From positions 1 through 39,385 of the forward strand of contig JARLFY010000091.1 in NCBI GenBank assembly GCA_031296325.1: DNA of 39,385 nucleotides, written 5' to 3'. The notes beneath the pieces were generated by a model. That model searched no databases. It was not told the DNA's origin and worked only from the letters and a program-made list of their open reading frames with translations. This document shows positions 1,596-13,625 of the stretch, piece after piece; the first letter of the stretch is position 1; each line of letters opens with the position of its first letter. The position numbers were made by a program, and so were the translations under genes. This stretch comes from Acidobacteriaceae bacterium. Lineage in GTDB: Bacteria; Acidobacteriota; Terriglobia; Terriglobales; Acidobacteriaceae.

Positions 1596-1680
1596 TGGTG
1601 CGGAGGAGGGGACTTGAACCCCTATGCCTTGCGGCGCTAGCACCTCAAGCTAGTGCGTCTGCCAATTTCGCCACCTCCGC
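1596..1680 (-). tRNA. tRNA-Leu (anticodon GAG)
   Basis: The gene folds as a class II tRNA with a long variable arm. The acceptor stem is GCGGAGG pairing with CCTCCGC, followed by discriminator A and an encoded CCA (1596-1598). The anticodon stem CTAGC/GCTAG encloses the loop TTGAGGT, giving anticodon GAG, which reads leucine codons CUC and CUU. The T-arm contains GGTTCAAGTCC. It has its own promoter upstream and a terminator downstream. Its 3' end points towards the cas3 side, the usual orientation for an element integrated at a tRNA. Confidence 0.95.
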
Positions 1681-9821: not shown

Positions 9822-9950
9822 AAAAAACGGTCATCCAATTTCAAAGGGATTCGCTTCAACGGTGGGGTGCGTCTGCTGTCGGGCAGAGACGGACAGCAAC
9901 AAAGATGCGAGGATTCTGAGTGCAAACACCCATCAATAAGGCTACATCAC

Positions 9951-10265
9951 CTAGGGTGTATCGACATATAGATCTTTTGTAATTGCAGTTGTCCTTGCCT
10001 GTTTGTCATTCCGTAGCGCAGCGGAGGAATTTGTTTTTCGCTGTTGCGGTTGTCTTTGCTGTTGCGGTTGTTTTTATAGCATTTTCCCCGAAGGGATAGA
10101 TTTCTGTGGCGCGAGCAACAAAGCAGATTCCTCCGCTGCGCTGCGGAATGACAAACAAAAGACGCTGCGGAATGGCAAACAAAAGACGCCGCGGAATGAC
10201 AAACAAAAGTGAGGCAACAGCAACAGTGGCGTCGCAAAACAACGTGTATATGTCGATACCGCCTA
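9951..10265. repeat. 315-bp MITE-like palindromic element with CTAG ends
   Basis: The left end reads CTAGGGTGTATCGACATATA. The reverse complement of the right end reads CTAGGCGGTATCGACATATA, so the terminal inverted repeats match at 18 of 20 bases. Inside are two copies of the CCGCAGCGCAGCGG-type core, a segment starting TAGCATTTTCCCCG that belongs to a second repeat family, and a tandem block. There is no transposase frame. The 142-bp element at 27741-27882 is a shorter relative. Confidence 0.75.
10141..10209. repeat. 24-bp tandem repeat, 2.9 copies
   Basis: Copies begin at 10141, 10165 and 10189, with unit CTGCGGAATGACAAACAAAA plus four more bases. It is an expansion of the right arm of the palindromic core, comparable to the blocks at 8218 and 13491 but with its own unit sequence. 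Confidence 0.85.
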
Positions 10266-10362
10266 GAATAAAAAATCCGTATGAATTCCGCATAAACGAC
10301 GCAGGAAGCCCGCATAAATAATTAGCGCGCTTCCCGCTCGCTTTCGACCCCAGCGCCGCCGT

Positions 10363-11637
10363 CTATTGTGCGAAACGTCCTTTGTATGCCCACAGCCCAA
10401 GGCCGGGATTGGAGATGAAGAAGATCTCCTCGCCATCGACGGTGTTCCAGCCATCCACCAGCTTGGTCGGGTCGTACTTCGCGGTGTACTCGGCCAGATC
10501 GCCGTACTCGAAGTGCGCTCCCTCGATCTCCTCGCGCGTCAGGTGACCGGGGCAGTAGCGAATCTTGAATCGCCCCTCGCTCGATCCGTGAATCAGATGA
10601 GCCGCAGCCGAAAGATTGCCCGCCAGCGCCGGATCGTTCTTCACCGCTGCGAGCGTCGCCGGTGTGCCGCAATATCCGTACTTGCGGATCAGTTTGTCGA
10701 TCGTGGGATCTTCGCCGAACTCGTGTACCGCGGGCGCCAGCACGATCAGCTCTGCGTCGTCTGCCAGAGCCATGCGCGTGCGATAGACGCTCTTGTTGCC
10801 CAGCCAGGTTGAGCGGAACTCGCTCGGATCGAGGAAGACCACGGCCTTGTGAATCTCGCGATCCAGCATCAGAAAGTTGACCTGCAAGCTCAGTTCCGCC
10901 GCGCGATCGAAGCACTCCGCGTCGTCGCCGATGTAGAGTCCGCGCAGCACCAGCTTGCCCGCTGCATTCTTGCTCACCACCGTCTGCACATAGACGATTG
11001 GCAGTCCCTGCGCAAAGTGGTCGCTGGCGTAGTTCAACACGCGCCGCACCGGAGTATCGGCCCGGCCCATCATACGTTCCATGCCGTAGACCGCGCCGAG
11101 GAAGTGCGAGCGATGAATCCCCATCACTCCGCCCGTGCCGACAAAGATATTCTTGTTGTAGTTGGCGAATCCGACGACCTCGTGCGGAACCACCTGCCCG
11201 ATGGACAGGATCAGGTCGTGACCACCGTCGCGCAGCAGTTTATTCACCTGCGCCGGCCACGGATAGTCTACCTTGCCCTCGCTCACCTCGCGCACAAACT
11301 CGCTGGGAACCTCGCCCAGCGTCACAATGTCGTTGCGCCAGTCATGCACGCGGAAGAGGTCACGCGGCGTCGGCCCGTACATCGTCTGAATCTCGTGGTC
11401 GGTCATTCCCTTGTGCGTACCCAGAGCGGGCAGCACGTCGGTCAACGCGTCGCCATAGTAGTTCCACGCATACTCGGTCAGCTTGCCTGCCATGGAGTGC
11501 ATGCGGGTGAAGTCCGGCGGCACGGCAAGAACTTTGTTGCGCACGCCCAGTTTGTCCAGCGCGCTGAAGAGAGCGGCCTTTATCTCGGCGGGGGTGAACT
11601 CGGTCGTGGGCGATCCAGCAGCAAAGAATAGACTCAT
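10363..11637 (-). CDS. LarA-like nickel-pincer-dependent racemase/epimerase (lactate racemase family, DUF2088)
   Basis: The 424-aa cytoplasmic protein matches the LarA superfamily, enzymes that racemise or epimerise 2-hydroxy acids using a nickel-pincer nucleotide. The catalytic set is visible: H75 in GTHKGMTDHE, H152 in QVVPHEVVGF, K162 in NYNKNIFVG and H178 in MGIHRSHFLG. The spacing H152-K162-H178 (10 and 16) equals that of lactate racemase H174-K184-H200, where the lysine carries the cofactor and the last histidine binds nickel. The substrate is unknown; a sugar acid is plausible beside a carbohydrate porin. The maturation genes larB, larC and larE are not in the window. The upstream region contains a promoter followed by a terminator, so expression may be controlled by attenuation. 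Confidence 0.8.
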   Translation of the reverse strand: MSLFFAAGSPTTEFTPAEIKAALFSALDKLGVRNKVLAVPPDFTRMHSMAGKLTEYAWNYYGDALTDVLPALGTHKGMTDHEIQTMYGPTPRDLFRVHDWRNDIVTLGEVPSEFVREVSEGKVDYPWPAQVNKLLRDGGHDLILSIGQVVPHEVVGFANYNKNIFVGTGGVMGIHRSHFLGAVYGMERMMGRADTPVRRVLNYASDHFAQGLPIVYVQTVVSKNAAGKLVLRGLYIGDDAECFDRAAELSLQVNFLMLDREIHKAVVFLDPSEFRSTWLGNKSVYRTRMALADDAELIVLAPAVHEFGEDPTIDKLIRKYGYCGTPATLAAVKNDPALAGNLSAAAHLIHGSSEGRFKIRYCPGHLTREEIEGAHFEYGDLAEYTAKYDPTKLVDGWNTVDGEEIFFISNPGLGLWAYKGRFAQ

Positions 11638-11775
11638 GTCGATTATTCTACTCGCGCCATGCCGTTCTTAGAGTATTTTCAGAGGGTGTAAATGTCTCGC
11701 GCATTTCGTTCGCACGGTTATGGTCTACGCCATTGCCAGTGGCAATCGATTCTCCAAAAAACTCTTTGCAGACAC

Positions 11776-11810
11776 AAAAAGACCGCCCGGCAACAGGGCG
11801 GCCTTTCTTT
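11776..11810 (-). terminator. Intrinsic terminator upstream of the larA-like gene
   Basis: GGCCGCCC (11796-11803) pairs with GGGCGGTC (11781-11788) around a 7-base loop and is followed on the minus strand by TTTTTG. The flanking A-run and T-run let it work in the other direction too, though no plus-strand gene precedes it. It lies inside the gap 138 bases before a start codon, not after a gene. Confidence 0.75.
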
Positions 11811-11853
11811 AGGGAGAATAGTTCCAACGGAGGCAAAGCCATCAGAACTTTCT
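11776..11853 (-). ncRNA. Candidate ~78-nt small RNA or leader RNA of the larA-like gene
   Basis: A near-consensus promoter and a strong intrinsic terminator bracket about 78 nucleotides with no convincing gene. The 5' half folds as AGTTC (11845-11849) pairing with GAACT (11820-11824), with an inner GGC/GCC helix and an exposed CCTCCG, followed by another C-rich stretch (CTCCC). Unpaired CCUCC-like loops are typical of trans-acting small RNAs that pair with Shine-Dalgarno sites. The same transcript could instead be the attenuated leader of the larA-like gene, whose ATG is 138 bases past the terminator. The structure is seen; both functions are inference. Confidence 0.5.
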
Positions 11854-11859
11854 GGCTGC

Positions 11860-11888
11860 ATACTAAGTTTGGCCAAAACCGGTGTCAA
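11860..11888 (-). promoter_or_regulatory. Strong sigma-70 type promoter
   Basis: TTGACA (11883-11888) and TAGTAT (11860-11865) are separated by exactly 17 bases on the minus strand; the -35 is a perfect match and the -10 is close to TATAAT. Transcription would start near 11853 and reach the terminator after about 78 bases. It is the best promoter match I found in the window. Confidence 0.75.
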
Positions 11889-12090
11889 GGCTAAAACGCA
11901 TCCGCTGCAACCCCTTGAAAATAAAGGCATGAATTATGCATCTTTGAACATAATTATTACGCCTAAGTTTCGCCTTGTGCGCTCGTTTGAAGCCAGAACA
12001 GACCGAAAAACAATAGGCTTACAGAAAAACCTGCACTGGCTCTGGTGCATTTAATCCTGTTTCAGCCCTCCTGCTCGTGTCCGTCCACCT

Positions 12091-13296
12091 TCAGTCCTTG
12101 GGATCGCGCAGTCGCTTGAAATCGGGTCCGCGCAGATCGATGCGCAGAAACTCCGGATCGCTGGCCGCTGACTTGCCCTGCATCACGCGAATCAGCGCTC
12201 GTCCACCGCCGAAAAAGAGGCCCAGTACCACTGCTGCCAGCGCGCCCAGACCGCACAGGATCGCAATGCTGTTCAGCAGGCTGTAGGTCTTCCGCAGTTC
12301 ACTGTGAAACTCCGGCGGAATCGGCTTGTCGAAGCTCACTTCGAGGCGCAGATGAATTCCGTCAATCAACTGCTGCGCCTCGGTCGCGGGCCATGCTCCG
12401 GTGGTCAGCGCCAGCAGGGGACCCTCGCGGCGCAGTTTCACCGTTCCCGCCGTCGCTCCCTGCTGATGCAGTACGGCCTCGATGGCGCGTCCGTGTTCGC
12501 CTGCAATCTGCGGCGTGGGATAGAGCAGCAGGGTCAACGTGCCTCCCGCCTTCGATCTGGCCGTCACCACCTCGGCGTTCTTGTCGAAGCCCAGCACGCT
12601 TGCCGGAAGCACTCCGCCCGTCTGCGCATATCCCTGCGGCCCCAGCGCATAGCGCACCGATTCCGCGTCCATTCCCTTGGTCGGCACCAGCTTCGGCAGC
12701 ATTGGCGCAATCCCCGCCGCGCCGCTCGCCTTGGGCAGATGGTCGATCAACTCCGCCATCAGCGCGCCGCCGCGATCCCCATGCAGGTTGAAGCTCTCGC
12801 GCACCACATTCACGCCGCTGCGAAAGACAATCTCATTGCCCGCGCCCGAAGCCTTCTCGTCGCCCAACTTCGTTGCATCTACCAGCCCCGGCCTGCGGAA
12901 GTAGTCGAAGGCCGCTACCGCGCCGCTCGCGTCCATGAACTTGTAGACCGTCACCGATCCGTGCTGCGGCCCGTCGGCGTACTCCGAGCGTGCAAACCGC
13001 CGCAGCCCATCCTCAGTCAGAACGGTAGCGTCGGCTGCGTCCACCAACCCCAGTCCGTCGCCCACGTCTCCTGCACTGACGCGCTTCAGCTTGCCCAGCG
13101 TCTCCGGCAAAAGCGGCGCTGGAGGTGCAACCAACATCGTCTTCGGCGCAGCTCCTGCGGGCAGCGCCTGCGCTCCTGCGGAGAGCGTCATTGCGCCTCC
13201 GATAACTGCGCACAGCCCTGCCATCGCCAACCAAAACGCAGGCCGTACCGCGCCGACTCTTGCCGCTATACCCGTCCATCGAAAAAAAACTTTCAT
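12091..13296 (-). CDS. Membrane-anchored hypothetical protein, DUF6599-like
   Basis: The 401-aa protein has an N-terminal signal or anchor (AFWLAMAGLCAVIGGAM), a long extracytoplasmic region, and a second transmembrane helix near residues 340-365 (LLNSIAILCGLGALAAVVLG), then a short basic cytoplasmic tail. The middle contains YADGPQHGSVTVYKFMDASGA and EIVFRSGVNVVRESF, features I associate from memory with DUF6599, a family common in Acidobacteriota and without known function. A proline-rich linker precedes the soluble part. The gene stands alone with a repeat-filled gap upstream. I cannot assign a role; a cell-envelope location is the firmest statement. Confidence 0.65.
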   Translation of the reverse strand: MKVFFRWTGIAARVGAVRPAFWLAMAGLCAVIGGAMTLSAGAQALPAGAAPKTMLVAPPAPLLPETLGKLKRVSAGDVGDGLGLVDAADATVLTEDGLRRFARSEYADGPQHGSVTVYKFMDASGAVAAFDYFRRPGLVDATKLGDEKASGAGNEIVFRSGVNVVRESFNLHGDRGGALMAELIDHLPKASGAAGIAPMLPKLVPTKGMDAESVRYALGPQGYAQTGGVLPASVLGFDKNAEVVTARSKAGGTLTLLLYPTPQIAGEHGRAIEAVLHQQGATAGTVKLRREGPLLALTTGAWPATEAQQLIDGIHLRLEVSFDKPIPPEFHSELRKTYSLLNSIAILCGLGALAAVVLGLFFGGGRALIRVMQGKSAASDPEFLRIDLRGPDFKRLRDPKD

Positions 13297-13625
13297 ACAT
13301 CGCCCAGATTACCACTCCATAGCAGTCCCTCGCTTACCTCATCCTCCCCCCGCGCTGCGATTGAAAGGGCATAGTTCACACGTTCCGAATCATTCGCTGT
13401 GTATGGAAGAACACGGCTCACGACTACCAGAGCATTTTCGGTGATGGGGTAGACCGTTGTGGAGCGAGCAAAAGCAGATTCCTTCGCTTCGCTACGGAAT
13501 GACAAACAATAGATGCTACAGGAGGACAAACAATAGATGCTATGGGACGACAAACAATAGATGCTACGGAATGACAAACAAATTGATCCGTAGCTAAAGA
13601 TCGTATGGCTGATTCATCCGATTGT
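13297..13625. other. 329-base non-coding gap with repeats
   Basis: The gap lies between the DUF6599-like start and the glk stop. A degenerate copy of the AGCATTTTC-type repeat end begins at about 13423 and leads into the tandem block at 13491-13580. 13297-13420 should contain the promoter of the DUF6599-like gene; nothing else is recognisable. Confidence 0.7.
13491..13580. repeat. 24-bp tandem repeat, 3.7 copies
   Basis: Units start at 13491, 13515, 13539 and 13563, with consensus GCTACGGAATGACAAACAAT plus four bases. The middle two copies carry substitutions (AGGAGGAC and GGGACGAC). It follows a palindromic core and is the third independent expansion of this arm in the window. Confidence 0.85.

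Follow-up and report, generated by a model that had tools for sequence, protein, structure and literature searches.

The locus and its small RNA

The window, by which we mean the whole stretch of 39,385 nucleotides analyzed from an Acidobacteriaceae bacterium, carries a DUF6599 gene (12091..13296, minus strand; PF20244, 55.8 bits) and, further along the same strand, a larA-like gene. Between the two and outside both lies a short unit, also entirely on the minus strand, in which a promoter is followed by a predicted RNA of ∼81 nt and an intrinsic terminator. The −35 element TTGACA (11883..11888, minus strand) and the −10 element TAGTAT (11860..11865, minus strand) are separated by a 17-nt spacer. 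With 10 of 12 matches, this is the top of four promoter-like sites within 8 kb, for which shuffled sequences lead one to expect 1.9 sites. TTGACA was invariant in 30 loci from the window's genus and in a set of 36 loci, and the −10 element reads TAGTAT in the genus loci and mostly (C)ATAAGAT in other genera. Judging from the promoter spacing, transcription probably starts at the A at 11853. The predicted small RNA (11773..11853, minus strand) folds at −34.9 kcal/mol, compared to −19.6 ± 2.9 in shuffles (z −5.3). It was matched by our covariance model R1 (27 sequences) at G000:C43:11773-11853 with an E value of 1.1e-18, the window copy being itself part of that model.

The terminator (11776..11808, minus strand) is composed of a stem and a T-rich tail. 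A terminator scan returned seven such sites versus 7.3 in shuffles, which is no excess, so the case for this terminator rests on its conservation. Both elements had been noticed in a preliminary description of the DNA, which placed them correctly but named no strand, and both are conserved family-wide. It also gave the right distance to the larA-like ATG at 11637, ∼138 nt from the end of the terminator stem. A tRNA gene at 1599-1680 (minus strand; RF00005, 54.6 bits) is the sole Rfam match in the window at gathering score. Two other regions (∼9947-10321 and 13293-13577) contain short intergenic repeated segments, with SFVCHSAA / SIYCLSS repeats in the ORF translations, that resemble dispersed intergenic repeats.

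The RNA has the plan CAGAAAGTTTTGACGG, variable loop, CCTCCGTTGGAACTATTCTCCCTTGAA, terminator throughout the family. Its 5′ hairpin (11815..11853, minus strand) keeps the stem and varies in the loop, which is predicted to be CUUUGCCU in the window RNA. The CCTCCG previously proposed to be exposed is therefore only partly so, since the CCG that follows sits inside the stem and the loop itself varies across the family. The element that we infer to pair with a target, CTATTCTCCCTA (11810..11821, minus strand), is conserved and spans an unpaired CCCUAA (predicted unpaired at a probability of 0.93-1.00) and the lower stem of the hairpin.

Structural conservation was evaluated on an alignment, A2, that was fitted to the covariance model and comprised 100 matches, with 92 of its rows distinct. 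Changes on both sides of a pair were found in 14 of 27 pairs (11 of 13 in the terminator stem and 3 of 14 in the 5′ hairpin), and 99.1% of the cells were paired (99.0% in the 5′ hairpin), a result reached by none of 500 shuffles and by no slid control; because the alignment was fitted to the model, these counts lean towards it. An independently aligned genus set showed both-sided changes in 5 of 27 pairs, all of them in the terminator; the 5′ hairpin hardly varied in this set. The 30 aligned genus loci retained promoter, transcript, and terminator, with conservation islands upstream and none evident past the terminator. By these comparisons, the promoter-transcript-terminator unit is more than a chance arrangement and is kept across the whole family.

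Distribution of the small RNA

A DNA search of 61 genomes detected the RNA in 32, all from the window's genus, of which 37 genomes were sampled, the window's own included. The covariance search in related Acidobacteriota, proposed as a check in the preliminary description, extended this range considerably: the order was represented by 298 genomes, and 256 of them, all from family f1 and none from family f2, carried the RNA. Across a phylum-wide sample, 31 of 297 genomes matched, namely, 29 from f1 (two f1 genomes were missed) and two (G522 and G548) from the ∼266 genomes outside f1; these two matches were weak (E about 4e-4) and are perhaps due to chance. An exact-pattern scan of named genomes returned at least 117 stretches, and among the 80 matches listed all were from Acidobacteriota, including Edaphobacter lichenicola, Granulicella aggregans, and Acidicapsa dinghuensis. 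Genome G020 carries two copies of the RNA ∼180 nt apart (locus L076), an arrangement seen on two contigs of the one assembly. Hfq is encoded in 59 of the 61 relatives, among them the window genome.

The neighborhood is largely constant upstream and variable downstream

Of 202 loci, a set in which some genomes are represented twice, 196 have a DUF6599 gene directly upstream of the RNA and on the same strand; in four of the remaining six, the sequence available upstream is shorter than 500 nt. The genes on the 3′ side differ between loci, and the downstream ORFs fall into many separate groups. The larA-like protein matched at 1 of 209 loci, the window's own. No linkage to glucokinase or 6-phosphogluconolactonase was seen in 84 loci of at least 7.9 kb.

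The order of promoter, terminator, and larA-like ATG, in line and ∼138 nt apart, had suggested a transcription attenuator or riboswitch that controls the larA-like gene. However, conservation stops at the terminator, and no Rfam cis-regulator reached the gathering score in the window. Since the gene that follows the RNA varies and a larA-like protein occurs at a single locus, the relatives do not have one regulated gene behind the RNA, as a cis-acting element would, and we discarded this reading as extremely improbable.

A similar fate befell the proposal of a leader-peptide system, or of a dual-function RNA, encoding MALPPLELFSL... The 64-codon frame exists (11842-11648), and in the genus loci its ATG and first 10 codons are kept, both variable sites therein being third positions. 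Outside the genus, however, ATGG is mostly ACGG (GACGG for GATGG), and the loop changes in length out of frame. Even within the genus, the ORF ranges from 26 to 523 codons, and no ribosome-binding site was evident by eye. As the ATG and the frame are lost, there is no conserved short ORF of the kind expected of a leader-peptide attenuator, and hardly any likelihood is left to this reading. To judge by its sequence, the RNA instead forms a unit with a promoter and a terminator of its own that does not depend on the gene behind it, as trans-acting base-pairing small RNAs (sRNAs) do.

The RNA is complementary to the start of a lysine-rich micropeptide gene

Exact base complementarity links the core of the RNA, CUAUUCUCCC, to the ribosome-binding site of a peptide that is encoded elsewhere and has 12 to 24 residues, mostly lysine and alanine. 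The exact complement, GGGAGAATAG, occurred 42 times in nine genomes; 8 of these matches were the small RNA gene itself, leaving 34 others versus 27 for a reversed control. Thus, there is hardly any overall excess, and the informative part is that the match recurs at one gene only: in six genomes of five genera, it lies 2 to 6 nt ahead of the start codon of one very small gene, and in a seventh genome, G141, it is also found at the start of this gene. Among the 30 of 42 ten-mer matches that could be read, no other gene with a match at its start recurred by eye.

The encoded peptide is about half lysine (MATKKAAKK..., MATKKKAKKKKH). Across 84 peptides, only K, A, T, P, H, G, S, V, and M were found, with a mean lysine content of 51%. 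The one micropeptide examined had no match in Pfam or NCBIfam; ORFs that short are commonly overlooked by gene finders. The gene has its own promoter of the TTGACA...TATACA type, a leader estimated at 43 to 63 nt, and a terminator-like hairpin behind it. RNA gene and micropeptide gene are 0.3 to 2.4 Mb apart in the closed or large contigs of G022, G112, G115, G096, G091, and G141. On three contigs (G133:C24, G089:C3, and G250:C104), they lie ∼6 to 9 kb from each other.

We then searched the order with the pattern GGGAGAATN{2,14}ATGGCNACNAARAARGC, that is, GGGAGAAT 2 to 14 nt ahead of ATG-Ala-Thr-Lys-Lys-Ala. It matched in 112 of 298 genomes, whereas the reversed control matched in none, and none of the 14 f2 genomes carried it. 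Although the pattern demanded only GGGAGAAT, all but four of the matches listed extend to GGGAGAATAG. In 80 further chosen genomes, GGGAGAATAG preceded ATGGC in 56, and 45 of these read as the micropeptide, one of them ending at a contig edge; the other 11 comprised six different genes (G072, G075, G118, G159, G227, and G228) and five left out (G041, G092, G101, G117, and G146). The suggestion that a free RNA pairs with ribosome-binding sites thus found a specific and conserved target, but the pairing element is the linker CUAUUCUCCC and not the CCUCC loop to which pairing had been ascribed.

RNA and target change together

Four genomes (G003, G011, G016, and G036) have CUGUUCUCCC in place of CUAUUCUCCC in the RNA. 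Their peptide genes, fetched by the coding start alone with the binding site left free, carried GGGAGAACAG rather than GGGAGAAUAG where the peptide begins. The converse was obtained for G121 and G100, where the target GGGAGAACAG was seen first and the RNAs, read afterwards, proved to be CUGUUCUCCC. An order-wide search for the C-type target matched in 6 of 298 genomes, five from the switched set (G016 is outside that sample) and G282; the G282 match was rejected, as it belongs to a longer, different gene, and the micropeptide gene of G282 has a T-type site.

Altogether, 76 genomes were read on both sides. The switching position of the duplex was A-U in 70, G-C in 6, and mismatched in none. These pairs come from searches in which that position was restricted to T or C, and because most of the searches demanded the 10-mer, a perfect 10-nt match follows from their design; crossed pairs, A-C or G-U, were still detectable among the 76. 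For the same reason, that the targets had already been picked by the 10-mer, we rejected a comparison of complementarity length with shuffled leaders as support. A flanking position of the duplex paired in 59 of the 76 genomes, compared to a mean of 34.4 and a maximum of 49 in 10,000 permutations, uncorrected for kinship.

On a tree of DUF6599 (91 rows), RNA base and target base each switched three times, and all three independent pairs agree; a sign test on these three events gives a p value of 0.25, three being too few for significance. The tree labels G072 as target bearing although its match is another gene, and G072 is outside the three switching clades.

Could folding of either RNA account for the switch? 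In the predicted fold of the sRNA, the switching base is an A that bulges out of the 5′ hairpin without a partner, so the RNA's own structure fails to explain its change. On the mRNA side, the target base lies within a predicted leader hairpin in the window's genus; this hairpin could be a partial alternative for the mRNA-side change but leaves the change in the sRNA unexplained. In computed binding, four cognate pairs gave values of −12.1 to −20.4, and the A-type RNA of G022 bound two of three C-type targets at −6.1 and −7.7 but the third, from G100, at −11.9. G-type RNAs bound the U-type target of G022 at −10.9 to −12.9, compared to −12.1 for G022's own RNA.

Since changes in the RNA match changes at the start of the peptide gene, the sRNA very probably pairs with the micropeptide mRNA. 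It has, by sequence comparison, conserved and covarying complementarity to an mRNA from another locus, which is the mark of a trans-acting base-pairing sRNA. The pairing data are equally compatible with the reverse relation, in which regulation starts from the micropeptide mRNA: it would act as a sponge, capturing and eliminating an sRNA that mainly targets other mRNAs. sRNAs often have several targets, and the peptide mRNA forms a short, structured unit bounded by a promoter and a terminator of its own. However, the site lies right at the ribosome-binding site of an ORF whose product remains lysine-rich in many genera, as would be expected of a repressed mRNA, and the readable ten-mer matches did not reveal a second recurring gene to serve as main target. 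We therefore consider a sponge improbable and favor an sRNA that acts on the micropeptide mRNA.

Genomes in which the partner was not found

The co-occurrence of RNA and target is loose by these searches. The order-wide target pattern was found in 105 of 256 RNA-bearing genomes, in 7 of 28 family genomes in which the RNA was not detected (G007, G013, G255, G283, G288, G293, and G302), and in none of the 14 f2 genomes. Searches of the window's own assembly (88.8% complete, 2.6 Mb) did not return the micropeptide gene, and the window's neighbors in the tree, G008, G017, and G298, carry the target pattern. The target patterns were likewise unmatched in several RNA-bearing genomes, for example, G030, G149, G182, G020, G202, G223, and G225. 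The RNA of G225 is of the G type, and the order-wide search found no C-type target in that genome; no match was obtained for the compensating targets predicted for G202 (RNA CUCCUU) and G223 (CGAUUCUCCC).

The reading of 20 more RNAs brought up genus g22, which offers a natural test of the pairing and of which nine genomes were read (L399-L407). All nine RNAs have the core CUGCCUCCCAUAG for CUAUUCUCCCUA and are otherwise alike; the target-pairing element is CTGCCTCCC, and the core can also be given as CUGCCUCCC. The GGGAGAAT target was found in none of 21 g22 genomes. Either the peptide was lost in this genus or its site changed along with the RNA; a changed RNA where the GGGAGAAT target is missing fits the proposed pairing, in a negative way. 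A search for the predicted g22 target, GGGAGGCAG, followed by a lysine-rich ORF covered 297,272 bases on either side of the RNA in the nine genomes and returned no such peptide gene.

The g22 RNA retains CCUCCC while the remaining core differs, and the linker is CU-rich in general. Both observations would suit a broad anti-Shine-Dalgarno sRNA with many targets, the peptide mRNA being just one of them and the CCUCC of the hairpin perhaps contributing; alphaproteobacterial sRNAs carrying motifs of this type are believed to act on many targets (PMC7143759, PMC12559287). Against this breadth, conservation exceeds the Shine-Dalgarno complement (CUAU...) and tracks a single target, and the loop is variable. 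We regard a broad sRNA as possible but less likely than not, and it would be compatible with the explanation that we prefer, silencing of the micropeptide.

Proposed mechanism and relation to known systems

Conservation, structure, complementarity, and the coordinated change of both sides emerge from the sequence comparison, and they are best explained, with high likelihood in our view, by an independent gene whose product, a trans-acting sRNA, prevents a polycationic micropeptide from being translated. The gene would produce an RNA of ∼80 nt from its own sigma-70-type promoter, with a 5′ hairpin (stem kept, loop variable), a highly conserved CU-rich linker, and a terminator. The linker CUAUUCUCCCU-A/U and the ribosome-binding site AGGGAGAAUAG of the separate peptide mRNA would form a duplex of ∼12 bp. 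Pairing probably nucleates between the unpaired CCCUAA and AGGG of the target, after which the duplex would invade the lower stem of the 5′ hairpin. Binding of the 30S subunit would then be blocked and the peptide not made, provided that both RNAs are expressed together; Hfq may help the pairing. By this route, the sRNA very probably switches the micropeptide off. The peptide itself would be expected to bind nucleic acid or another polyanion.

In its plan, the RNA works like CU-rich sRNAs of alphaproteobacteria, above all alpha-r8 (MmgR/SuhB, RF00519; SisA-D of Caulobacter), with which it shares a length of ∼77 to 80 nt, a 5′ hairpin, a CUCCCUA linker, and an intrinsic terminator. Among Rfam families, RF00519 also came closest, with a weak alignment that spanned the whole model (17.6 bits; E value of 0.35 or 0.07 depending on search size). 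We did not file the RNA as a member, the gathering score being 41. It differs from alpha-r8 in coming from another phylum and in having one conserved, covarying target, whereas the accessible parts of the MmgR literature report no direct mRNA target and mention no micropeptide target (PMC12559287, PMC7143759). AbcR and alpha-r14/NfeR1 of rhizobia likewise have unpaired CU-rich anti-Shine-Dalgarno motifs and a host with Hfq but are longer, with three hairpins and many predicted transporter targets (PMC7143759); the present RNA has no gathering-level Rfam match. Acido-1 (RF01686) and Acido-Lenti-1 (RF01687), noncoding RNA candidates from the same phylum (PMC2864571), were unmatched in the window at gathering score and absent among the eight matches with an E value up to 10 for 11640-12100.

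Trans-encoded type I toxin-antitoxin systems such as ZorO-OrzO also consist of an sRNA that pairs with the mRNA of a very short peptide, and here too the RNA is complementary to the mRNA of a candidate toxin. Type I toxins are described as small hydrophobic proteins. The present peptide is not a small hydrophobic (membrane) peptide, being ∼51% lysine. The RNA is present in most of the family genomes sampled, and, unlike a compact pair, the two genes are separated by 0.3 to 2.4 Mb in the six closed or large contigs named above. Before a cyanobacterial candidate, type I systems were known only from Proteobacteria, Firmicutes, and Tenericutes, according to PMC12390103.

sRNAs of Acidobacteriota are little known: a table in one review counts four annotated ones (PMC9029176). 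Our searches of open-access papers yielded no description of the present RNA and no acidobacterial sRNA with a named mRNA target. Here, an sRNA and its covarying target were found at once, so the pairing is testable by two point changes. The distribution raises the question of why a widespread family keeps an RNA dedicated to a micropeptide.

Upstream elements and a possible circuit

Upstream of the promoter, the window contains a dyad, TGCACCAGAGCCAGTGCA (12032..12049, minus strand), of the form TGCAC-N6-8-GTGCA, possibly a site for some regulator. This form occurred 159 to 172 nt upstream of the −35 element in 54 of 186 distinct loci, compared to 4 of 3720 shuffled upstream regions.

A bolder picture, which we offer tentatively and with rather more doubt than belief, makes the two genes a circuit within the core genome of the Acidobacteriaceae. 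The dedicated sRNA would silence a protamine-like, hydrophilic, nucleic-acid-binding polylysine micropeptide much as trans-encoded type I pairs do with their hydrophobic peptides, a regulator bound at the upstream dyad would shut the RNA off and so release the peptide, and in g22 both partners of the duplex would have been recast (RNA CUGCCUCCC, predicted target GGGAGGCAG). The dyad at its near-fixed distance, together with other conserved elements elsewhere, suggests that the RNA is probably regulated. These elements comprise TGACA/TGTCA dyads, present in 11 of the 186 loci, and TCTCA...TGAG-like and GTAAGTTATTGAAAA elements.
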